From assembly GCF_900109195.1 (NCBI RefSeq), contig NZ_FNZG01000005.1, positions 82,223 to 146,222 on the forward strand: DNA of 64,000 bases, in the 5' to 3' direction. The DNA is from Pseudooceanicola nitratireducens. GTDB taxonomy: Bacteria > Pseudomonadota > Alphaproteobacteria > Rhodobacterales > Rhodobacteraceae. This document shows, in pieces, positions 15,932 through 24,971 of this stretch. Both the position numbers and the translations under genes were made by a program. How positions within the stretch are numbered: position 1 is the first letter of the stretch; every line of letters begins with the position of its first letter. Below the pieces are notes generated by a model. It was not told the origin of the DNA. It made no database searches and saw nothing but the letters and a program-made list of their open reading frames with translations.

Positions 15932-16746
15932 AGCTTCGACGCCGAGAAGGTCACCGGATCGATCGTCGAGGTGATCGAGATGATATTCTGCGCGGCCGAG
16001 CCCGAGTTCGCCGTGAGCATGGTCAGCGCCGCATTGTTCGCCGTCGCCGTGCCGTTCAGCGCGTCCGAGATCACGACGTATTTGCGCACCATGTCCTCGA
16101 TGAACTCCGGGTCCTGAAGGTCTTCCAGGTCCAGCTTGGATTTCAGGATCTCGGCCTGTTTGTCGATATCCAGCCCCGAAAGCTCGGACGGAAGGCCAAG
16201 CGTGGTCTGGAAGAACTCGGTCAGGCCGGTATCTGCCAGGATCTCGTAGACCGAGGAAATGTCGGCGGCCTTGTTGCGGAACTCCAGCGCCGTGGCGACG
16301 GTTTCGTTCTGCTCTTCTGCCGCGTTCAGGAACTGCCGTTCGACATAGCGGTCGACCATGCGGGTCTTCCAGCCGGACAGCAGCGTGTTCAGGTTGCCTT
16401 CGCCGTTCTCCTGGAAACCAAGTTCCTCGTACATCTCGCGGAACCGGGTGTCGGTCAGGCGGTTCACAAGGGCGTCGGATTCCTCGATGTTCGACTTGAG
16501 GATCTTCTTGATCATCGCCTTGCCGAACATCTGGTCTTCCAGATCGAAGGCGCGCATGACGAACCCGTAAAGTTCGGGATCGTCCACCAGTTGATCCACG
16601 GTCTCTACATCGCCGATGTTTTCCTTGAAATATTCGATGGCCCGGCTGTGCTGGGCGGTATTGCGAATGATTTCAAGCTGGCTGTCCCGGGTTCTGTCGA
16701 CCAGGTTCAGACCGTTCAGCGAAGAGAGACCGGAAATTGGGATCAT
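15922..16746 (-). CDS. DUF1217-type flagellar-region protein
   Basis: 274 residues, mostly alpha-helical and acidic, with no signal peptide or membrane helix. The repeating pattern IEYFKENIGDVETVDQLVDD ... FVMRAFDLEDQMFGKAMIKK ... TDTRFREMYEELGFQE matches DUF1217 proteins, which occur in alphaproteobacterial flagellar clusters and have no settled function. Its start overlaps the flbT stop by 4 bases (gene order flaF-flbT-this gene on the minus strand), so it is likely cotranslated with the flagellin regulators. An axial or export-related role is possible but unproven. Confidence 0.65.
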   Translation of the reverse strand: MIPISGLSSLNGLNLVDRTRDSQLEIIRNTAQHSRAIEYFKENIGDVETVDQLVDDPELYGFVMRAFDLEDQMFGKAMIKKILKSNIEESDALVNRLTDTRFREMYEELGFQENGEGNLNTLLSGWKTRMVDRYVERQFLNAAEEQNETVATALEFRNKAADISSVYEILADTGLTEFFQTTLGLPSELSGLDIDKQAEILKSKLDLEDLQDPEFIEDMVRKYVVISDALNGTATANNAALTMLTANSGSAAQNIISITSTIDPVTFSASKLYL

Positions 16747-17222
16747 CCGACTTCACGGCGCAATGCCGGCTCCTGTTCTTCCATATGCGCAGGTGCGCCG
16801 CGGGCGTCGTCGCGCAGGCTGGCCGGACGGGGCACATTGGCGCCCAGGATCTCGGCTTCGCGTTTCATCAGGGGACGCAGGGCGCGCAGCGCCTTGTAGA
16901 AATCGCCCTGGCTGACAAAGTTCGCGGCCTCGAAGACGCAATGCACACTTGGCGGGCCGAAACTGGTGGCCAGCGCGGCCAGCTGCTGCTGGATCGGCTT
17001 GCGCAGCTTGTCCTGCAGTGCAGGGTCGGTCAGCGCGGTCTGCACCAGGAAATAGGCCTGGTTCACAGGGGTCACGGCGGCCTTCTTGCTTAGAAGATCC
17101 TGCCCGCGAACCACGTCCGCCTTGGTTTCGATGACGATCGTCGACTTGCGGGTGGAATTGCGCACCACGCAACCGTTGATGACGATCCGCTCAAAGGGTT
17201 TGAGTGTCAGTTGAAGCGCCAT
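16743..17222 (-). CDS. flbT: Flagellin post-transcriptional repressor FlbT
   Basis: 159 residues. The FlbT family represses flagellin synthesis by acting on the flagellin mRNA 5' leader (shown in Caulobacter). Family pattern: LTLKPFERIVINGCVVRNST, then DVVRGQDLLSK, then YFLVQTALTDP. Lies 3 bases after flaF and close to four flagellin genes whose leaders share two hairpins, which makes those leaders the obvious candidate targets. The C-terminal tail after about residue 130 is variable. Confidence 0.9.
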   Translation of the reverse strand: MALQLTLKPFERIVINGCVVRNSTRKSTIVIETKADVVRGQDLLSKKAAVTPVNQAYFLVQTALTDPALQDKLRKPIQQQLAALATSFGPPSVHCVFEAANFVSQGDFYKALRALRPLMKREAEILGANVPRPASLRDDARGAPAHMEEQEPALRREVG

Positions 17223-17225
17223 GGA

Positions 17226-17624
17226 TCACCCCCTTGGACCCGGCTGTGCGCCGGAGAGCCCTGCGATCAGGCTCTGGTTGATGGTGACCAATGTGCCCAG
17301 CCCGGCCCCGCCGCCCAGAACGATCGCCGTCTGCCGTTCCACGAACAATGCCAGCGAAATCAGCCCAGCCTTAAGTTGGATCGGCAATCCGTTTTCGGGC
17401 TGGGACAGATCGTGCTTGATCGTGGACCAGAGTTTCAGGTTTTCGGCAACCACACCGCGCAGGCCCTTGGCCAGCAGTTCCGACCGGACGAGTTTCTTCG
17501 TCGCGCCGTCGAATTCAGCCGTGTGTTTTTCCATTTCGCCGGTGACGCGCAGGAACACCCGACGCTCGATTTGTCGGGGGGACTCGCTTTCTCTAATCGT
17601 GCGTTTGTACGCCGCGATACTCAT
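17226..17624 (-). CDS. flaF: Flagellar biosynthesis regulator FlaF
   Basis: 132 residues, helical cytoplasmic protein that works with FlbT and promotes flagellin synthesis or export. Family features: tyrosine-containing N-terminus (AAYKRTIRESESPRQIERR), KLVRSELLAKGLRG and NLKLWSTIKHDLSQPENGLP. First gene of flaF-flbT-DUF1217 on the minus strand. A GCAATTGTG box lies 56 bases upstream of its ATG. Confidence 0.88.
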   Translation of the reverse strand: MSIAAYKRTIRESESPRQIERRVFLRVTGEMEKHTAEFDGATKKLVRSELLAKGLRGVVAENLKLWSTIKHDLSQPENGLPIQLKAGLISLALFVERQTAIVLGGGAGLGTLVTINQSLIAGLSGAQPGPRG

Positions 17625-17679
17625 GTTGACCTGTCCTCATTTACCGCATTCTGCGGTTTTGATTTATGGTTCGTACCCC

Positions 17680-17688
17680 GCAATTGTG
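17680..17688. promoter_or_regulatory. GCAATTGTG box upstream of flaF
   Basis: GCAATTGTG at 17680-17688, 56 bases before the flaF start. It shares its core with boxes upstream of three flagellin genes and flgI; the right half (GGC) is not conserved here (TCC). Confidence 0.4.
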
Positions 17689-17705
17689 TCCTGCGGTGGT
17701 CCAAG

Positions 17706-17745
17706 AAAGGGCCGGTCCGTGATCTTCTGCCTGATCCGGCCCTTT
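17706..17745 (-). terminator. Terminator of flagellin gene 1
   Basis: AAAGGGCCGG (17706-17715) pairs with CCGGCCCTTT (17736-17745), 20-base loop; on the minus strand the stem is followed by TTTCTTGG. It lies 60 bases after the flagellin stop. Confidence 0.5.
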
Positions 17746-17804
17746 GGTCATGTCTTCATTTTGACCGCGCCGGGGCCTGTCACCCCGGCACGCTCAATTC
17801 AGTC

Positions 17805-18641
17805 TTACTGGAAGAGGCTCAGGATGTTCTGAGGCGAGGAGTTCGCGATCGACAGCGACTGCGTGGCCAGCTGCTGCTGCACCTGCTGCGCCTGAAGCTT
17901 CGCGGCTTCTTCTTCCATGTCCGCGTCGATCATGGACCCGATGCCGCTATCAAGACGGTCGGTCAGTTCGCCCAGGAATTCCTTCTGGGTTTCGATCGAT
18001 TTCTCGGCAATGCCCAGGGCGGTCGCGGCGGCAACGGCTGCGGACAGCTGTGCTTCTGCGGCCTGAAGGGCGGCAACTTGCGAACCGGCCGAAGTGGCGG
18101 CGGTCAGGTCGATGGCGGCCAGCACGGACTGGATGGCGCCCAGGTCCTGCTGCAGGAAGGTCATCGTCGTGGTGTTGATGGAACCGCCCGCGGCACGGCT
18201 GATGCCGGTCACCAGGGTCACGGTCGCGCCCGAGTTCACATAGTCGGTGCCATTGAAGGTCGCCTGCGAAATCGTGGTGGACATACGGGCCACCAGTTCG
18301 TCCAGTTCCGCCTGGACGTCAGCGCGCACTTCCGAGGTACCGCCCTGCGCGAATGCAACGCGCTCGGCGAAGTCATTGGCCAGTTCGACCAGGGTTTCGG
18401 CACCCAGGCGGGCGGTCGAAACGGCGTTCTTCTGCAGCGTCAGGGTTTCGTCGATCGCTTTGAACATGCCGCTGTCGCCGGACATGGTCTTCGAGATCGA
18501 GAAGTAGGCTGCGTTGTCCTTGCCGGACGCAATTTTAAGGCCGGTCGAGATACGGCCCTGCGTTTCGGTAAGGTTGTTGTTGATTTGACGAAGGGTCGAC
18601 AGCGCGGTCATCGCGCTGTGGTTCGTGAGGATAGAGGACAT
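17805..18641 (-). CDS. fliC: Flagellin (copy 1)
   Basis: 278-residue filament protein, one of four consecutive flagellins of identical length. Conserved N-terminal D0/D1 helix (MSSILTNHSAMTALSTLRQI, then GRISTGLKIASGKDNAAYFS) and C-terminal D0 (QLATQSLSIANSSPQNILSL). Only a short middle segment is present, with no large outer domain. This copy is the most divergent: N-N-L-T-E-T-Q-G instead of the D-T-Q-S type, DADMEEEAAKLQAQ, and last residue Gln. Its leader hairpin also has the most changed stem. Own upstream box and downstream terminator indicate an independent unit. Confidence 0.95.
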   Translation of the reverse strand: MSSILTNHSAMTALSTLRQINNNLTETQGRISTGLKIASGKDNAAYFSISKTMSGDSGMFKAIDETLTLQKNAVSTARLGAETLVELANDFAERVAFAQGGTSEVRADVQAELDELVARMSTTISQATFNGTDYVNSGATVTLVTGISRAAGGSINTTTMTFLQQDLGAIQSVLAAIDLTAATSAGSQVAALQAAEAQLSAAVAAATALGIAEKSIETQKEFLGELTDRLDSGIGSMIDADMEEEAAKLQAQQVQQQLATQSLSIANSSPQNILSLFQ

Positions 18642-18705
18642 CTCTTACTGCTCCGATATATTTTTATCGTGTTGTCGACTTCTGTCGAAAAACGGGCCTG
18701 CCCGT
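18642..18705 (-). promoter_or_regulatory. Structured 5' leader of flagellin 1
   Basis: On the minus strand, hairpin I is ACGGG-CAGG-CCCGT (18692-18705), hairpin II is TCGAC-AGAA-GTCGA (18675-18688), then an A/T-rich linker and a GGAG site (18651-18654) before ATG 18641. Hairpin II has a different stem from the other three copies but keeps the AGAA loop, which is the covariation expected of a functional RNA. Proposed FlbT-responsive element. Confidence 0.6.
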
Positions 18706-18721
18706 GCGTCCAGCCTTACCA

Positions 18722-18744
18722 GCAATTGTCGGCATTGTGTAAAC
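18722..18744. promoter_or_regulatory. GCAATTGTCGGC box upstream of flagellin 1
   Basis: GCAATTGTCGGC at 18722-18733 followed by GCATTGTGTAAAC (18732-18744). Variant of the box seen upstream of flagellins 2 and 3 and flgI, about 80 bases before the start codon. Confidence 0.4.
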
Positions 18745-18859
18745 AAAAATTCGCTTAATAAGGGTGGTGTTGCGGTGTCGTCACGGCCAACCAGACGGCC
18801 AAGCATAGACATGCTTTACAATTTTCACACGCTTTTACAGATACTTACATGAATAGATC

Positions 18860-18884
18860 CAAGGATAGATTATTTCTACCTTAG
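18860..18884. promoter_or_regulatory. Degenerate inverted CAAGGATAG box
   Basis: CAAGGATAG (18860-18868), ATTATTT, CTACCTTAG (18876-18884). Closely resembles the ftcR/flgI site (CAAGAATAG then ATTATTTA). It lies in the flagellin 1-2 interval, about 220 bases upstream of flagellin 1. Confidence 0.35.
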
Positions 18885-18950
18885 GTTGAACTGCGGCAAT
18901 GGGGTCGCGGCGAACCGCAACCCCGGATGTTCAGAAAAGGTCAGTCCCGA

Positions 18951-19787
18951 TCAGGAAAAGAGATTCAGGATGTTCTGCGGCGACGAATTCGCAATGGACA
19001 GCGATTGCGTTGCCAATTGTTGTTGCACCTGAAGCGCCTGCAGACGCGCGGCCTCTTCTTCCATGTTGGCGTCGATCATCGACCCGATGCCGCTATCAAG
19101 GCGATCGGTCAGTTCACCCAGGAAGTCTTTCTGGGTTTCGATGGACCGTTCGGCAATGCCAAGCGCGGTCGCGGCGGCCACGGCTGCGGACAGCTGGGCC
19201 TCGGCGTTCTGCAGGGCGGTCGCCTGAAGCGTCGCAGTGGTGGCCGAAGTGATCGAAATTGCATCCAGCGCGGATTGGATCGCGCCCAGATCCTGCTGCA
19301 GGAAGCTCATCGAGGTGGTCGAGATCGACCCGCCTGCCGCGCGCGAAATGCCGGTCACCACGGTGACGGTCGCGTTCGAGTTCACGTAGTCGGTGCCGTT
19401 GAAGTTCGACTGCGCGATGGTCGTGGCCATCCGCGCGACCAGTTCGTCCAGTTCGGCCTGGATGTCATCGCGGACTTCCTGCGTGCCACCCTGTGCAAAG
19501 GCGACGCGTTCGGAAAAGTCCTGTGCCAGATCAACCAGCGTTTCCGCACCCAGGCGGGCGGTCGAAACGGCGTTCTGCTGAAGCGTCAGGCTTTCATCGA
19601 TCGCCTTGAACATGCCGCTGTCGCCGGACATGGTTTTCGAGATCGAGAAATAGGCGGCGTTGTCCTTGCCCGAGGCGATCGACAGACCGGTCGAGATCCG
19701 CGACTGCGTGTCAGACAGGTTGGTGTTGATGTTCCGCAGGGTGGACAGCGCGGTCATGGCGCTGTGATTGGTAAGAATGGAAGACAT
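18951..19787 (-). CDS. fliC: Flagellin (copy 2)
   Basis: 278 residues with the same D0/D1 layout as its neighbours: MSSILTNHSAMTALSTLRNI at the start and SLSIANSSPQNILNLFS at the end. Differences cluster in the middle (TTSMSFLQQDLGAIQSALDA, then ISITSATTATLQATALQNAE), which is the surface-exposed part. Upstream it has the conserved leader and an exact GCAATTGTGGC box. All four copies keep intact frames, so the expansion looks selected rather than decaying; they may build filament segments with different properties. Confidence 0.95.
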   Translation of the reverse strand: MSSILTNHSAMTALSTLRNINTNLSDTQSRISTGLSIASGKDNAAYFSISKTMSGDSGMFKAIDESLTLQQNAVSTARLGAETLVDLAQDFSERVAFAQGGTQEVRDDIQAELDELVARMATTIAQSNFNGTDYVNSNATVTVVTGISRAAGGSISTTSMSFLQQDLGAIQSALDAISITSATTATLQATALQNAEAQLSAAVAAATALGIAERSIETQKDFLGELTDRLDSGIGSMIDANMEEEAARLQALQVQQQLATQSLSIANSSPQNILNLFS

Positions 19788-19846
19788 GTTCTGCTCCGAT
19801 TTTTCTTATCTCTCCATCGGATTTCTTCCGAAACCGGGCCTGCCCG
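19788..19846 (-). promoter_or_regulatory. Structured 5' leader of flagellin 2
   Basis: Hairpin I CGGG-type (19835-19846), hairpin II TCGGA-AGAAA-TCCGA (19817-19831), A/T-rich linker, and GGAG at 19794-19797. The 3' arm UCCGAU could alternatively pair with AUCGGA at the ribosome-binding site, suggesting a switch. Confidence 0.6.
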
Positions 19847-19985
19847 TGGCGACAGTTAACCTTTTCAATTTGACCAAATTAAGAAACAAACACTTGCAAC
19901 CCACTTTTCACGACATTTTTGCAAAGACACATATGTTTCAATGGGTTAAACACCCCTTTCGGATAGTGAATGTGTTTTCAATCGG

Positions 19986-20001
19986 GCAATTGTGGCCAAA
20001 C
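19986..20001. promoter_or_regulatory. GCAATTGTGGC box upstream of flagellin 2
   Basis: GCAATTGTGGCCAAAC at 19986-20001, about 200 bases before the flagellin 2 start. On the minus strand it reads GTTTGGCCACAATTGC, nearly identical to the flagellin 3 site. Confidence 0.5.
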
Positions 20002-20112
20002 TGTGACGAAAAGCCGGGCGACTGTCCTCAATTGGACTTCAACCTTTAGGCGAAATGACCAGTTGCGCAATTTTTGTGCAGCCCCTCCACTCCCCTAGCC
20101 CGGAAACGAAGA

Positions 20113-20136
20113 AAGGCCGCAGTTCCCTGCGGCCTT
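20113..20136 (-). terminator. Terminator of flagellin gene 3
   Basis: Perfect 10-bp stem AAGGCCGCAG (20113-20122) with CTGCGGCCTT (20127-20136), TTCC loop; the minus strand continues TTTCTTCG. 24 bases after the flagellin stop. Confidence 0.75.
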
Positions 20137-20159
20137 CCGGTCTGATCTGTGATCCCGCG

Positions 20160-20996
20160 TCAGCGGAAGAGCGACAGGATATTCTGTGGCGCAGAGTTCG
20201 CGATCGACAGGGACTGTGTCGCAAGCTGCTGTTGCACCTGAAGCGCCTGCAGTCGCGCGGCCTCTTCTTCCATATTGGCGTCGATCATCGAACCGATGCC
20301 GCTGTCCAGACGATCCGTCAGTTCGCCCAGGAATTCCTTCTGGGTCTCGATGGACTTCTCGGCAATACCAAGCGAGGTCGCGGCAGACACGGCTGCGGCC
20401 AGCTGGGCTTCTGCGGATTGCAGCGCGGCGGCCTGCGAACCGGCCGAAGTAGCGGTCGTCAGGTCGATGGCGGCCAGGGTCGCCTGGATGGTGCCCAGAT
20501 CCTGCTGCAGGAAGCTCATCGTCGTGGTCGAGATCGAACCGCTGGACGACCGCGAGATACCGGTGACAACCGTGACAGAGGAGTTCGCGTTCACATAGTC
20601 GGTGCCGTTGAAGGTGGCCTGGGCGATGGTCGTCGACATACGCGCGGCCAGCTCGTCCAGTTCGGCCTGCACATCGGCGCGCACTTCCGCGGTGCCGCCC
20701 TGGGCAAACGCGACGCGTTCCGAGAATTCCTGCGCCAGATCAACCATCGTCTCGGCACCCAGGCGGGCGGTGGAAACGGCGTTCTGCTGCAGGGTCAGGT
20801 TTTCGTCGATCGCCTTGTACATGCCGCTGTCGCCGGACATGGTTTTCGAGATCGAGAAATAGGCGGCGTTGTCCTTGCCCGAGGCAATGGACAGACCGGT
20901 CGAGATACGGCTTTGCGTGTCCGACAGGTCGCTGTTGATGTTGCGCAGGGTGGACAGCGCGGTCATGGCGCTGTGGTTGGTCAGGATGGAAGACAT
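20160..20996 (-). CDS. fliC: Flagellin (copy 3)
   Basis: 278 residues from the ATG at 20996, the same start as the other copies; the frame stays open upstream to 21089 but that part is the leader. N-terminus MSSILTNHSAMTALSTLRNI, C-terminus SLSIANSAPQNILSLFR. Together with copy 4 it forms the closest pair (shared SAPQNILSLFR and ARLQALQVQQQLATQSLSIA). The middle region reads TFLQQDLG-like (MSFLQQDLGTIQATLAAIDL). Own leader, upstream box and strong terminator. Confidence 0.95.
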   Translation of the reverse strand: MSSILTNHSAMTALSTLRNINSDLSDTQSRISTGLSIASGKDNAAYFSISKTMSGDSGMYKAIDENLTLQQNAVSTARLGAETMVDLAQEFSERVAFAQGGTAEVRADVQAELDELAARMSTTIAQATFNGTDYVNANSSVTVVTGISRSSSGSISTTTMSFLQQDLGTIQATLAAIDLTTATSAGSQAAALQSAEAQLAAAVSAATSLGIAEKSIETQKEFLGELTDRLDSGIGSMIDANMEEEAARLQALQVQQQLATQSLSIANSAPQNILSLFR

Positions 20997-21059
20997 GTTC
21001 TGCTCTCCGGTATTCTTTTTATTTTTCGCCGGATTTCTTCCGCGGTCGGGCCGTCCCGT
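20997..21059 (-). promoter_or_regulatory. Structured 5' leader of flagellin 3
   Basis: Hairpin I CGGG-ACGG-CCCG (21047-21058), hairpin II CGGA-AGAAA-TCCG (21030-21042), linker, and GGAG at 21005-21008. Here the arm reads UCCGG and the ribosome-binding region CCGGAG. In copies 2 and 4 they are UCCGA and UCGGAG, a paired change that supports alternative pairing with the binding site. Confidence 0.6.
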
Positions 21060-21183
21060 ATGAAAATTGCTAGAGCGACAATCGGGCAAGAATATGAAAG
21101 CTGAGCGTTTTCAGGATTTTTCCTGATAAGTTGTATCCTGAATGAAAACAATAACTTAAGACGCGGAAACAATTCACTTGCCT

Positions 21184-21199
21184 GCAATTGTGGCGAAAC
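21184..21199. promoter_or_regulatory. GCAATTGTGGC box upstream of flagellin 3
   Basis: GCAATTGTGGCGAAAC at 21184-21199, about 190 bases before the start of flagellin 3. Differs at one base from the flagellin 2 box over 16 positions. Confidence 0.5.
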
Positions 21200-21239
21200 T
21201 TGGGCACGCCCCGGCCGCCTGTATATACCTGGACCCCGC

Positions 21240-21268
21240 AAAAAAGGCCGCGATAAACGCGGCCTTTT
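21240..21268 (-). terminator. Terminator of flagellin gene 4
   Basis: Perfect 11-bp stem AAAAGGCCGCG (21242-21252) with CGCGGCCTTTT (21258-21268), ATAAA loop, and six T on the minus strand. 26 bases after the flagellin stop; probably ends the flgI-rod-binding-flgN-flagellin transcript. Confidence 0.8.
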
Positions 21269-21293
21269 CCAGAATTTCGATACTGATGCGGGA

Positions 21294-22130
21294 TCAGCGG
21301 AAGAGAGACAGGATGTTCTGCGGCGCAGAGTTCGCGATCGACAGGGACTGTGTCGCAAGCTGCTGTTGCACCTGAAGCGCCTGAAGCCGTGCGGCTTCTT
21401 CTTCCATGTTGGCGTCGATCATCGACCCGATGCCGCTGTCCAGACGATCCGTCAGTTCACCAAGGAACTCTTTCTGGGTCTCGATGGACTTCTCGGCAAT
21501 ACCAAGCGAGGTCGCCGAGGCAACGGCTGCGGACAGCTGTGCTTCTGCGGTCTGCAGGGCGGCTGCCTGTGCACCGGCCGAGTTGGCCGCTGTCAGGTCG
21601 ATGGCGTCCAGTGCGGACTGGATCGCACCAAGGTCCTGCTGAGCGAAGGTCATCGTCGTGGTCGACACGGAACCCGAGGAGGAACGCGAGATACCGGTCA
21701 CGACGGTGACGTTGGCGGTCGAGTTCACATAGTCGGTACCGTTGAAGTTCGACTGGGCGATGGTGGTGGACATACGGGCCACCAGTTCGTCCAGTTCGGC
21801 CTGGACGTCGGCACGCACTTCGGCAGTGCCACCCTGGGCGAACGCGACGCGTTCGGAGAATTCCTGCGCCAGGTCAACCATGGTTTCGGCACCTAGGCGG
21901 GCGGTCGAAACGGCGTTCTGCTGCAGGGTCAGGTTTTCGTCGATCGCTTTGAACATGCCGCTGTCGCCGGACATGGTTTTCGAGATCGAGAAGTAGGCTG
22001 CGTTGTCCTTGCCCGAAGCAATCGAGAGGCCGGTGGAAATCCGGGACTGCGTCGAGGACAGATCGTTGTTGATGTTACGCAGGGTCGACAGCGCGGTCAT
22101 TGCGCTGTGGTTGGTCAGGATGGAGGACAT
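21294..22130 (-). CDS. fliC: Flagellin (copy 4)
   Basis: 278 residues, same architecture: MSSILTNHSAMTALSTLRNI at the start and SIANSAPQNILSLFR at the end. The middle differs from copy 3 (TMTFAQQDLGAIQSALDAID). Unlike copies 1-3 it has no GCAATTGTGGC box directly upstream; it follows flgN by 106 bases and may be read from the flgI promoter, while keeping its own structured leader. So it is possibly expressed with the P-ring and chaperone genes, earlier than the others. Confidence 0.95.
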   Translation of the reverse strand: MSSILTNHSAMTALSTLRNINNDLSSTQSRISTGLSIASGKDNAAYFSISKTMSGDSGMFKAIDENLTLQQNAVSTARLGAETMVDLAQEFSERVAFAQGGTAEVRADVQAELDELVARMSTTIAQSNFNGTDYVNSTANVTVVTGISRSSSGSVSTTTMTFAQQDLGAIQSALDAIDLTAANSAGAQAAALQTAEAQLSAAVASATSLGIAEKSIETQKEFLGELTDRLDSGIGSMIDANMEEEAARLQALQVQQQLATQSLSIANSAPQNILSLFR

Positions 22131-22193
22131 GTTCTGCTCCGATATTTTTTATTTTTTCGTCTTCGGATTTCTTCCGAGAACGGGCCTGCCCGT
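22131..22193 (-). promoter_or_regulatory. Structured 5' leader of flagellin 4
   Basis: Hairpin I (22181-22192, CGGG stem with CAGG loop), hairpin II TCGGA-AGAAA-TCCGA (22163-22177), a T-rich (minus: A-rich) linker, and GGAG at 22137-22140. Same order and spacing as the other three leaders. Confidence 0.6.
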
Positions 22194-22236
22194 GGAGCAC
22201 AACTAAACGGGGAAATGGGGCAGGAATAAGGAAGCT

Positions 22237-22638
22237 TTAGAGCGATTGGTCGAAATGTTGGGAAGAGGTCGGATTTTTTGCACGCTTTTCGCCGTTCGGC
22301 CCGTAGGTCCCGGACAGGGAATGCCGGTCGCGGATGCGGTCAAGTTCTTGGATGATCGTGCCGGTGGCTTCGGTCATCTTCTCCAAAAGCGCATGATCTT
22401 GGGCGATAAGTTCCCGTAATTCCGTCAGTTTTTCCCGAAGCTCGCCCGCCTGGGGGTGATCCTCCAGCAAGGCGCGGGGCACGGCGAAGGCCTCTTCTAC
22501 CTCGGCCAGAAGGGCGGACTTCTGCGGATAAAGTTCCGTCACCTCGGCAAGACGACCACCCGTAATTGCTGCGATTTCGTCGCGCAACACACGGCTGAGG
22601 CGATCAACCACCGACAGAGCTTGAGCCATGGACGCCAT
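22237..22638 (-). CDS. flgN: FlgN-like export chaperone
   Basis: 133 residues, fully helical and charged, as in FlgN-type chaperones of the hook-junction proteins FlgK and FlgL. The long heptad-like stretch RLSRVLRDEIAAITGGRLAE ... LYPQKSALLAEVEEAF ... LREKLTELRELIAQDHALLE fits the FlgN fold; sequence conservation is always weak. Last-but-one gene of the flgI operon, 11 bases after the rod-binding gene. The start could also be the ATG three codons in. Confidence 0.6.
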   Translation of the reverse strand: MASMAQALSVVDRLSRVLRDEIAAITGGRLAEVTELYPQKSALLAEVEEAFAVPRALLEDHPQAGELREKLTELRELIAQDHALLEKMTEATGTIIQELDRIRDRHSLSGTYGPNGEKRAKNPTSSQHFDQSL

Positions 22639-22649
22639 ATTCTATCCCC

Positions 22650-22961
22650 TTATCCGCGCATCGCGGCGCGATATGCGCTGATGCTGTTTTCGACGCTTGC
22701 CGCGATTCCCGTGGTCCCCTGCTCGACCAGCTGGTCGGCATAGGCCCGCGCCAGGAAGCTGCGCCAGGTCTCTTCCGCAAAGCCGCCGCCCATGTCGCCC
22801 AGGGGCACGGTCTTCAGCATCTCTTCCATGACCTGGGTCAGGAAGACCGCTTCGAATTCCTTGGCGGCCGTCTTGGCCAGATCACTGGGGTTCGGGCTGG
22901 TGCGGTTCAGATAGGCCTGGCCTTCGGCCAGCGCGGTGAAATTCGAGGCGGGAATATCCAT
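22650..22961 (-). CDS. Rod-binding protein (FlgJ N-terminal domain only)
   Basis: 103 residues corresponding to the rod-binding half of FlgJ: AKTAAKEFEAVFLTQVMEEM, then GGGFAEETWRSFLARAYADQ, then GIAASVENSISAYRA. The muramidase half is absent; wall opening is probably supplied by the lytic transglycosylase at 54135-54893. Cytoplasmic or exported to the rod, acting as scaffold in rod assembly. 9 bases after flgI, in the same operon. Confidence 0.85.
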   Translation of the reverse strand: MDIPASNFTALAEGQAYLNRTSPNPSDLAKTAAKEFEAVFLTQVMEEMLKTVPLGDMGGGFAEETWRSFLARAYADQLVEQGTTGIAASVENSISAYRAAMRG

Positions 22962-22970
22962 GGGCGAACC

Positions 22971-24077
22971 TCAGATGATTTCCAGGTCGGCATGCAGGGC
23001 GCCGGCGGCCTTGATGGCCTGAAGGATCGAAATGGTTTGGCTGGCGGTCACGCCGATGGCGTTCAACCCGTCGACCAGGCGTTGCAGCGACACGTCACCT
23101 TCCAGGATGGTGAAGTTGACTTCGGCCTCCTGCACCTCGACCTCGGTCTGGGGCACGACGACGGTGGTGCCGCCGATGCTGATCGGCTCGGGCTGGCTGA
23201 CTTCGATATCCTCGCGCACGACAACCGTCAGGCCACCCTGCGACACGGCCACCTTGTCGACGCGAACGTTTGACCCGATCACGATGGTGCCGGACCGCGC
23301 GTCGATGACCACCTTGGCCACGCTGTCGGGCTGCACCATCAGGTTTTCCACGGCCGCCATCATTTCAGGCGTGTCGCCCTTGTCGTTGCCCATCACCTCG
23401 ATGGTCGAAGGATCCAGCACCTGCGCCGTCCCCGGGCCAAGCGCCATGTTGATCTTTTCAGCCACGCGGTGCGCGGTCGTCATGTCGGGGGACCGCAGCG
23501 CGATCCGGAAGGACCGCAGCGAGGCGAGGGTAAAGTCGATTTCATTCTCGACCGTGGCGCCGTTTTCGATCCGGGCCACCGTGGGCACGCCTTCGACGAT
23601 CGAGGCATTGACCCCCTGCGCCGCATAACCGGCCACCGCGATCGGGCCCTGCGCCACCGCATAGACTTCGCCATCGGCACCGGACAGCGGCGTCACGATC
23701 AGCGTGCCCCCCCGCAGGGACGAGGCATCGCCAAGCGAGGACACGACCACATCAATGGTCGACCCGCGCCGCGCAAAGGGCGGCAGCATGGCCGTGACCA
23801 TGACCGCAGCCGTGTTCTGCGTGCGCATGTTGTCTTCGGAAAGGTTGCCGACGCCCAGGCGTTCCAGCATCCCTTCGATGGATTTTTCCGTAAAGGGACT
23901 GTTGCGCAGCGTGTCACCGGTCCCGTTCAGACCGACGACGAGCCCGTAGCCCACAAGCTGGTTTTCCCGCACCCCTTCAAAGGAGGCGATGTCCTTGATC
24001 CGCACATCCGCCCTTGCAGTTTCCACAACCGGAGCGAGGGCGATCATGACGGCGAGAGCTGCTCTTATAACCCGCAT
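22971..24077 (-). CDS. flgI: Flagellar P-ring protein FlgI
   Basis: 368 residues from ATG 24077; a TTG start at 24104 is also in frame but is less likely. The signal peptide MRVIRAALAVMIALAPVVET ends before ADVRIKD, giving export to the periplasm where FlgI forms the P ring. Typical segments: RIKDIASFEGVRENQLVGYG, LVVGLNGTGDTLRNSPFT, and the C-terminal LNAIGVTASQTISILQAIKA. First gene of the operon running into the rod-binding gene, flgN and probably flagellin 4. Confidence 0.95.
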   Translation of the reverse strand: MRVIRAALAVMIALAPVVETARADVRIKDIASFEGVRENQLVGYGLVVGLNGTGDTLRNSPFTEKSIEGMLERLGVGNLSEDNMRTQNTAAVMVTAMLPPFARRGSTIDVVVSSLGDASSLRGGTLIVTPLSGADGEVYAVAQGPIAVAGYAAQGVNASIVEGVPTVARIENGATVENEIDFTLASLRSFRIALRSPDMTTAHRVAEKINMALGPGTAQVLDPSTIEVMGNDKGDTPEMMAAVENLMVQPDSVAKVVIDARSGTIVIGSNVRVDKVAVSQGGLTVVVREDIEVSQPEPISIGGTTVVVPQTEVEVQEAEVNFTILEGDVSLQRLVDGLNAIGVTASQTISILQAIKAAGALHADLEII

Positions 24078-24115
24078 GACCTGTTTTCTTGTCGTTGTTT
24101 GCAAGGATTATTGCA

Positions 24116-24159
24116 GCAATTGTGGCATAAACACAAGAATAGATTATTTACTCTTCTTG
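24116..24159. promoter_or_regulatory. Combined boxes in the flgI/ftcR divergent region
   Basis: GCAATTGTGGC (24116-24126) sits 39 bases before flgI. Next to it lies an inverted pair, CAAGAATAG (24134-24142) and CTCTTCTTG (24151-24159), one mismatch, 8-base spacer. This is the only region where both recurrent elements meet. It lies upstream of the regulator gene itself, so autoregulation is possible. Confidence 0.5.
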
Positions 24160-24176
24160 GTTGTGGACGGATTTGC

Positions 24177-24206
24177 TTGACGCTCACAGGTTTGTGTTTC
24201 TACACT
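24177..24206 (+). promoter_or_regulatory. Likely sigma70 promoter of ftcR
   Basis: TTGACG (24177-24182), 18-base spacer, TACACT (24201-24206), 52 bases before ATG 24258. The inverted box pair ends 18 bases upstream of the -35 hexamer, a normal place for an activator site. Confidence 0.45.
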
Positions 24207-24257
24207 GTAAGGAAAACACAAAGAGGCCGATCCAGAAAACAAGGATCGGGGAGCAGC

Positions 24258-24971
24258 ATGCATATTTATCTTTACGAGCCGCGCGCGGATCGTCTGAATG
24301 GACTCATGGCAGAGCTTCGGTCGGCGCGAATGAAGCCCGTTCCGATTCAAGAGGCCTTCTTCCGTGGTGAACTGGGCCTTCTCAACCGCAGCGGGCACGA
24401 AGACCGGCCCTTCCTTCTGGCCGACAATCCCGAAGTTCTGGAACAGATCACCGCCCTGCGCACCGCAGGTTGCACCAATCCGATCCTGGTGATGCGGGAT
24501 TTCCGAAATTCACGCGACACCGCCGCCGCGCTGGACGCGGGGGCCGATGATGACATCGTCATCCCGGTGAAGGCGATCGAGCTGAAGGCGCGCATCAACG
24601 CGGTGACCCGCCGGTCCCATGGCCATGCCGCCGAAAGCATCGAAGTGGGTGAGGTCGTCGCCTATTTCGACGGTCGCGATCCCGAAGTCTCCGGTGCCAC
24701 GGTGAAACTGTCGCGCCGCGAACATGCGATCTTCCAGCAGCTGGTGCTGAACGCTGGTCGCGTTGTGTCCAAGGGATCCATCTACGATGCGGTCTATGGC
24801 ATGTCCGAGGATCAGCCCTTCGACAAGGTGATCGACGTCTATATCTGCAAGATCCGCAAGAAGATCGACCAGGCCGCGGACTCGGGCCACAACTATATCG
24901 AAACGGTGCATGGCCGGGGCTACAAGTTTGCCGCCGCCGCCGATGCGCTGGTCCAGGCTGGCGGGATGTGA
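24258..24971 (+). CDS. ftcR: FtcR/CtrA-like OmpR-family flagellar regulator with degenerate receiver
   Basis: 237 residues from ATG 24258 (GGGGAGC upstream). The C-terminal winged helix is clear: VKLSRREHAIFQQLVLNAGR, then VIDVYICKIRKKID and YIETVHGRGYKF, the same pattern as CtrA. The N-terminal domain has receiver topology (GCTNPILVMRD, AALDAGADDDIVIPVKAIEL), but the paired acidic residues near position 9 are missing (LYEPR) and the conserved Lys of the K-P motif is Ile (VIP). Asp56 in FLLAD may align with the phospho-acceptor. It probably works without normal phosphorylation, as described for FtcR/Rem-type flagellar regulators. Divergent from flgI; convergent with flgL. Confidence 0.75.
   Translation: MHIYLYEPRADRLNGLMAELRSARMKPVPIQEAFFRGELGLLNRSGHEDRPFLLADNPEVLEQITALRTAGCTNPILVMRDFRNSRDTAAALDAGADDDIVIPVKAIELKARINAVTRRSHGHAAESIEVGEVVAYFDGRDPEVSGATVKLSRREHAIFQQLVLNAGRVVSKGSIYDAVYGMSEDQPFDKVIDVYICKIRKKIDQAADSGHNYIETVHGRGYKFAAAADALVQAGGM

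Follow-up and report, generated by a model that had tools for sequence, protein, structure and literature searches.

Why should four tandem flagellin genes of Pseudooceanicola nitratireducens each be preceded by a leader of one shared plan, and what might read it? The genes lie in a stretch of 64,000 nt (contig NZ_FNZG01000005.1 of assembly GCF_900109195.1, positions 82,223 to 146,222), referred to here as the window, and each leader measures about 60 nt and contains two stem-loops. It is probably the site through which FlbT, whose gene lies close by, would hold back flagellin translation until export is possible.

The four flagellin leaders

From 5' to 3' the leader consists of hairpin I, whose stem is CGGG, hairpin II, whose loop is AGAA or AGAAA, an A-rich linker and the motif CGGAG(AG)CAG, whose GGAG is the Shine-Dalgarno sequence; the ATG stands 3-6 nt beyond that motif. 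The first-pass annotation had described this plan, which is seen in all four copies, and had placed the leaders correctly, each ending immediately before a flagellin ATG. The scores listed are those of covariance model R1, described below.

22131..22193, minus strand: leader of flagellin 1, with hairpin I at 22180-22193 (ACGGGCAGGCCCGT), hairpin II at 22163-22177 (5 pairs, TCGGA-AGAAA-TCCGA, loop AGAAA at 22168-22172), the A-rich linker, CGGAGCAG and the ATG at 22130; 75.8 bits
20997..21059, minus strand: leader of flagellin 2, with loop ACGG in hairpin I, hairpin II as CGGA-AGAAA-TCCG (4 pairs, a bulge next), CGGAGAGCAG and the ATG at 20996; 44 bits
19788..19846, minus strand: leader of flagellin 3, with hairpin I CGGGCAGGCCCG, hairpin II TCGGA-AGAAA-TCCGA, CGGAGCAG and the ATG at 19787; 68.6 bits
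18642..18705, minus strand: leader of flagellin 4, with hairpin I ACGGGCAGGCCCGT, hairpin II TCGAC-AGAA-GTCGA, CGGAGCAG and the ATG at 18641; 64.3 bits

Hairpin I thus reads (A)CGGG-CAGG-CCCG(T) in every copy but the one at 20997, where it is CGGG-ACGG-CCCG, and that copy also has CGGAGAGCAG in place of CGGAGCAG as its start region. The loop of hairpin II lies 39-42 nt 5' of the ATG throughout. As the same annotation had pointed out, both arms of hairpin II are altered in the copy at 18642 with the core of the loop kept; the loop itself is one A shorter there (AGAA) than in the remaining copies (AGAAA).

Pairing and covariation

A search of 23 named loci and the window for the leader pattern gave 37 matches and, from these, 36 flagellin starts; the match at 1260 in locus L012, which belongs to another gene, and locus L013, which is without a start, were excluded. 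All 36 starts are preceded by an AGAA-loop hairpin of at least 3 pairs, and the loop is 38-46 nt 5' of the ATG in 35 of them; L012, with two hairpins of this sort, has it at 58 nt. A structure-free alignment (A2) of 33 of these leaders, made without L012, L023 and one L015 leader near-identical to an L014 one, has a covariation of 0.436, compared with 0.178 +- 0.017 after shuffling, and none of 500 shuffles reaches the observed score. All six pairs of hairpin II are altered on both sides, paired cells amount to 84.7% against 69.5% in the shuffles, and moving the partner by one column lowers the covariation to 0.147 or less. The shuffled controls leave the relatedness among leaders in place; despite this, the range of hairpin II stems (TCGGA/TCCGA, TCGAC/GTCGA, TTCGTC/GACGAA, CTTCG/CGAAG and CCCGG/CCGGG) shows that the changes were many. 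When leaders of the window's layout, called type A below (n=42), are anchored solely by the distance from AGAA to ATG and a 5-nt loop, pairs 1, 2 and 5 beat 500 of 500 shuffles. The loop of hairpin I is variable within the type A group. The first-pass annotation had staked its element on covariation in a larger alignment, and this is what the 33 leaders contain; the conserved, structured leader that it proposed is borne out both by that covariation and by the loop counts across the family.

Two leader layouts in the family

The family set comprised 106 unique leaders, all from flagellins of the MSSxxTN kind; 2 of the 80 loci fetched were without a flagellin match. An AGAA-loop hairpin of at least 4 pairs occurs in 71 of the 106, compared with a mean of 1.4 and a maximum of 3 in 20 dinucleotide-shuffled sets, whereas the complementary TTCT loop occurs in none. 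The loop therefore acts on the sense strand, as befits an RNA rather than a DNA operator. Its distance from the start codon separates two layouts, and no leader has both: in type A, the layout of the window leaders, AGAA lies 36-47 nt 5' of the ATG (42/106), and in type B 70-97 nt (57/106). Type B leaders begin with GTC-AGAAN-GAC, followed by a variable middle and then typically by GGCGC-AAA(A)-GCGCC and AAGGA.

An alignment of 44 of the 57 type B leaders (A6), scored over eight pairs taken from hairpin 1 and the last hairpin, gives a covariation of 0.277 versus 0.179 shuffled (0/500). Five pairs are altered on both sides, including all four of the last hairpin, a number that averages 3.4 in the shuffles and is reached by 27 of 500; RNAalifold applied to A6 predicted the last hairpin only. 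Pairs 1 and 3 of hairpin 1 are near-invariant and only pair 2 is clearly above the shuffles (2/500), so that conservation, more than covariation, supports the pairing of this hairpin, because its letters hardly vary.

Which other loops are enriched? A tally of all 4-nt loops closed by at least 4 pairs, at least 3 of them G-C, across 126 leaders places AAAA first (20 leaders, 1.0 shuffled), then AGAA (17, 0.9) and CAGG (12, 0.7), the last being hairpin I of the window group. Hairpins of the A(A/G)AA(N) or AAA type occur in 100 of the 126 leaders, 29 of which have two or more; the corresponding figures for a shuffled set are 6.9 and 0.2. In addition, 17 of 20 further fetched flagellin leaders have an AGAA hairpin of at least 3 pairs.

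Several variations on these layouts were seen. The paralogous leaders L213 and L214 of genome G086, which has nine flagellin domain matches, have the order swapped, with CGTC-AAAA-GACG first and GCGC-AGAA-GCGC last, and the AGAA loop is likewise shifted to the last hairpin in L216 (G025). At some type B loci, among them L105, L119 and L121, a GGTGGCGCG-like stretch, which may form a hairpin, recurs 5' of the first AGAA hairpin. Outside the family, L142, L144, L151, L152 and L159 have hairpins of the GC-AAAA(C/U)-GC type; their start region is CCAGAAUGGAG-like or CCGAGAACGGAG, and an AGAA hairpin of 2-3 pairs formed there would take in the GG(A) of the Shine-Dalgarno sequence; 5' of several of these five stand TGGCAY-N5-TTGC boxes, which we take to be sigma-54-like.

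Model specificity and the scars of lost flagellar clusters

Model R1 was built from the 33 aligned leaders, and over the whole genome at E<=1 it returns four matches, exactly the four window leaders. A covariance search of related genomes had been suggested in the first-pass annotation; carried out with R1 in 198 genomes of the family at E<=0.01, it found 11 matches in 7 genomes, nine of them flagellin leaders and two not, one inside the final part of a different coding frame (L028) and one at L030. Because R1 is narrow, the wider claim rests on the loop counts and on R2, the type B covariance model, which was searched in 149 family genomes.

At E<=0.01 R2 gives 98 matches, 86 of which have a flagellin domain match no more than 60 nt downstream. 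The remaining 12 were all inspected and are located at scars of flagellar clusters. Four (L231, L234, L235, L238) are followed by a broken fliC, about 46-56 codons long, which runs up against the end of flgE on the opposite strand, seven (L228, L230, L232, L233, L236, L237, L239) abut an opposite-strand fragment read as the first ~30 codons of motB, and L229 abuts a fliP fragment. The identities of flgE and fliP were confirmed by tblastn against window proteins; for motB, tblastn supported L236 alone (33 aa), and the reading of the others relies on a shared alignment. We read all 98 matches as flagellin leaders or flagellar-cluster scars, and strong model matches are confined to flagellin genes and their relics. 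Weaker matches (0.01 < E <= 0.1) number 20; four abut a listed flagellin, and three of the other 16, L240-L242, were read and have no clear gene; we leave these unassigned. Covariance models of this kind need nothing but sequence to locate flagellin leaders and the scars of lost flagella.

No flagellin domain match at E<=1e-8 was obtained in the genomes of L231, L234, L235 and L238, each of which has a long flgE frame and seemingly the same junction. L228 belongs to the genome studied here, outside the window (G000:C18:92111-92203), and is a type B leader without a flagellin, joined to a motB-like 5' fragment. It is likely the scar of an older flagellar cluster, and the type A cluster in the window may therefore be its replacement. 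The seven leader-motB loci come from genus-diverse genomes and seemingly share one junction at the flagellin start codon, which may reflect one old inherited deletion, repeated deletion at one site, or transfer.

FlbT as the likely reader of the leader

Which factor could recognize such a hairpin? The genes that follow the leaders point to a candidate: on the minus strand the four tandem flagellins are followed by flaF and then flbT. The adjacency of flbT-flaF to the flagellin genes, part of the earlier proposal, is confirmed by Pfam matches to both on the same strand.

21294..22130, minus strand: flagellin 1 (278 aa), Pfam PF00669 1.5e-16 and PF00700 4.2e-12
20160..20996, minus strand: flagellin 2 (278 aa, counted from the ATG at 20996), PF00669 match
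18951..19787, minus strand: flagellin 3 (278 aa), PF00669 match
17805..18641, minus strand: flagellin 4 (278 aa), PF00669 match
17226..17624, minus strand: flaF, Pfam PF07309 1.2e-20
16743..17222, minus strand: flbT, the proposed reader of the leaders, Pfam PF07378 2.8e-31

This flbT is the sole FlbT match in the genome (E<=1e-5), and no CsrA is found above the cut-off in it, the best PF02599 match scoring 12.8 bits against a cut-off of 27. FlbT is present in 114 of the 149 family genomes and flagellin in 122. A second kind of flagellin, M(T/A)xINTN, has no AGAA hairpin in its five leaders (L065-L069), and three of those five genomes (G039, G051, G097) possess FlbT and carry the AGAA hairpin on an MSSILTN flagellin (L226, L128, L225). 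The hairpin is also kept on flagellins distant from flbT, in 8 of 9 cases in G086 (L208-L215 but not L114) and at L126 in G134, which fits the need of a trans-acting reader. The sample outside the family consisted of the 53 leaders that had a usable start among the 30 best flagellin loci and 36 hand-picked places, and some genomes contributed more than one; an AGAA hairpin (at least 3 pairs, at least 2 of them G-C) is found in 14 of 32 leaders with FlbT in the genome versus 1 of 21 without it (Fisher p=0.0019). Adjacency, co-occurrence, a hairpin on the flbT-linked kind of flagellin and the failure to find CsrA are circumstances that support FlbT-responsiveness, and they make FlbT the likely reader.

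How might FlbT work here? In Caulobacter, FlbT is reported to act on a flagellin 5' untranslated region with the flagellin FljJ as partner, and FlaF to be a flagellin export chaperone (PMC7591256, PMC4347634, PMC9812332); the fljK 5' untranslated region of Caulobacter crescentus is cited as bound by FlbT (Anderson and Gober 2000, as cited in PMC4347634, PMC4894983). In Brucella, flagellin production is reported to require FlbT (PMC8781033). In Phaeobacter inhibens DSM 17395, flbT, flaF and fliC are listed as neighbours in one cluster, and a P. inhibens flbT transposon mutant is described as having retained motility (PMC11974857). FlbT is a conserved flagellin regulator, reported to be a repressor in Caulobacter and an activator in another alphaproteobacterium, and a 2015 review offers no FlbT binding motif and describes its mechanism as unresolved. 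By analogy, FlbT would grip the AGAA hairpin just 5' of the ribosome landing site, perhaps with contacts to hairpin I or the start region, and its activity would be set by unexported flagellin, perhaps as a co-repressor, as reported in Caulobacter. With FlbT on the leader, initiation would be blocked or decay hastened; export of flagellin aided by FlaF would relieve the block, and all four flagellins would follow one signal. The sign of this control is borrowed from Caulobacter, and could be reversed, to activation, as is reported of the other alphaproteobacterium.

A broader reading is that FlbT recognizes an alphaproteobacteria-wide, unlisted family of flagellin leaders with tandem A(G/A)AA hairpins, gripping two hairpins at once, or the start region together with a single hairpin, with AGAA and AAAA able to exchange places as in L213 and L214. 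We put this forward tentatively, as a possibility that may well prove wrong.

Several findings weigh against FlbT as the reader. The association outside the family is not significant at stricter cut-offs (at least 4 pairs, 8/31 vs 1/22, p=0.064; one G-C allowed, 9/31 vs 2/22, p=0.097; at least 5 pairs, 7/31 vs 2/22, p=0.28), counts that predate the correction of one FlbT label, and all of these tests ignore shared ancestry and multiple leaders per genome and include partly hand-picked leaders. Even at the looser cut-off, 18 of the 32 outside-family leaders from FlbT genomes are without the hairpin, and in the family 7 of the 106 leaders have AGAA at neither distance from the ATG. Genome G226 (L146, rated 100% complete), the source of the one hairpin leader among those 21, has the hairpin and no FlbT was found in it, and relic leaders occur in genomes without detected FlbT (e.g. 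G055, G070). These loci move as a block, so that the co-occurrence of leader and flbT may be linkage. Finally, no solved relative of FlbT was found by sequence, and FlbT fold searches gave no significant RNA-binding match.

Alternative explanations

Could the leader function without a dedicated protein? Its hairpins might be a 5' stabiliser and ribosome standby element of an abundant mRNA, with AGAA kept for stability. The order of parts would suit this, hairpins coming first, then single-stranded A-rich sequence and lastly a good Shine-Dalgarno sequence, as would the freedom of the hairpin I loop in type A and the persistence of relic leaders where no FlbT is found. A role in stability, however, is expected to favour GNRA or UNCG loops, and among hairpins of at least 5 pairs it is AGAA that stands out (42/106, 1.1 shuffled), with GAAA in 7 leaders (1.3) and GCAA in 3 (0.8). 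The AGAA loop is moreover kept across very different stems, and we regard this explanation as unlikely.

Another trans-acting factor, whether an RNA-binding protein, an RNase or a small RNA, might read the AGAA hairpin while FlbT works elsewhere. Such a factor would account for the hairpin of G226 and for the modest association with FlbT outside the family, but it would also have to account for a hairpin that sits on the flaF-flbT-associated kind of flagellin while the second kind, in those very genomes, is without it; CsrA, moreover, was not found above the cut-off here. We give this idea little credence, and FlbT remains the preferred reader.

It is highly improbable that the leader is a switch in which the 3' arm of hairpin II pairs instead with the Shine-Dalgarno region (TCCGA with TCGGA). 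Three window copies and four leaders of close relatives do have perfect complementarity of 5-6 nt, and some minimum-energy folds contain long-range pairing with the start region; this complementarity is nevertheless confined to 7 of the 42 type A leaders and is missing from the TCGTC/GACGA class, which retains hairpin II, and sequestration of the Shine-Dalgarno sequence by this arm was accordingly rejected. A DNA operator palindrome is likewise highly improbable: inverted repeats close to promoters often serve as operators, but here the arms vary with the loop kept, and the loop is strand-specific.

Two further candidates were set aside. The AGAA loop might be antisense to flagellin codons 3-6, as the type B hairpin can match ATTCTGAC, but real pairs are no better than permuted ones, the observed mean being reached by 190 of 200 permutations for type A and 97 of 200 for type B. 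Transcription attenuation was rejected because a consensus scan found no terminator-like site within the leaders.

Relation to known flagellin control systems

The arrangement is reminiscent of Caulobacter fljK, a flagellin 5' untranslated region with FlbT in the same genome, in an organism with reported post-transcriptional control of flagellin. Unlike fljK, the window has four co-directional flagellins beside flaF-flbT. In the genome comparisons Caulobacter served as a control that contributed no locus.

The flg-Rhizobiales RNA (RF01736) is likewise an alphaproteobacterial cis element of a flagellar gene. It was rejected as the identity of the leader, with no match in this genome (E<=0.01) and none above the cut-off in 230 genomes of the class; its best match, L205, covers the start of a gene other than flagellin, which we take to be a rod gene. 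Rfam 15 gave no family at gathering score over the window. Over 16700-24500 at E<=1 there were two sub-threshold matches, both outside the leaders and neither RF01736, and over the leader loci of 20 relatives at E<=0.5 three sub-threshold matches only.

The CsrA-FliW system reported in Bacillus and Campylobacter also has an RNA-binding repressor of flagellin mRNA, held by a protein antagonist (PMC4894983). Here, unlike in that system, no CsrA is found above the cut-off, the loop is AGAA and not GGA, and FlbT has no detectable relation to CsrA in profile and fold searches. The N-terminus of FlbT looks CsrA-like by eye, with five N-terminal strands in the AF2 model, but these searches lent a CsrA fold no support and it was not adopted. 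In hhalign, FlbT and CsrA aligned over 1 column in one run and at E 0.14 in an unrelated stretch in the other, leaving the beta domains unaligned. Foldseek/VIA, given the whole FlbT model and residues 1-66, had no CsrA among the matches listed, the model of residues 1-66 being weak (pTM 0.41). Among the Foldseek matches for residues 1-66 were several RNA-phage coat proteins, none better than E 1, and these were not used.

If the broader, tentative reading is true, FlbT and the tandem A(G/A)AA leader would be the alphaproteobacterial counterpart of CsrA-FliW. No description of an AGAA flagellin-leader hairpin was found in the searched literature, which consisted of titles and passages and took in few subscription papers, the 2000 Caulobacter paper not being among them. 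What is new here is a defined, family-wide RNA for a control previously known from single examples. The fixed AGAA loop, exchangeable stems and precise placement make it a concrete RNA target that can be tested by loop and stem swaps.

Transcription of the flagellin cluster

The closest named relatives of the four flagellins are those of Pseudooceanicola and Primorskyibacter (83-89% identity), which points to the Rhodobacteraceae/Roseobacter group. A terminator-like stem-loop was detected 3' of flagellin 2 by consensus scan (20138-20111), and a second one, read from the sequence, lies 3' of flagellin 1 at about 21268-21240. These stem-loops suggest that some of the four flagellin genes are likely transcribed separately, and flagellins 1 and 2 may each form a transcript of their own.

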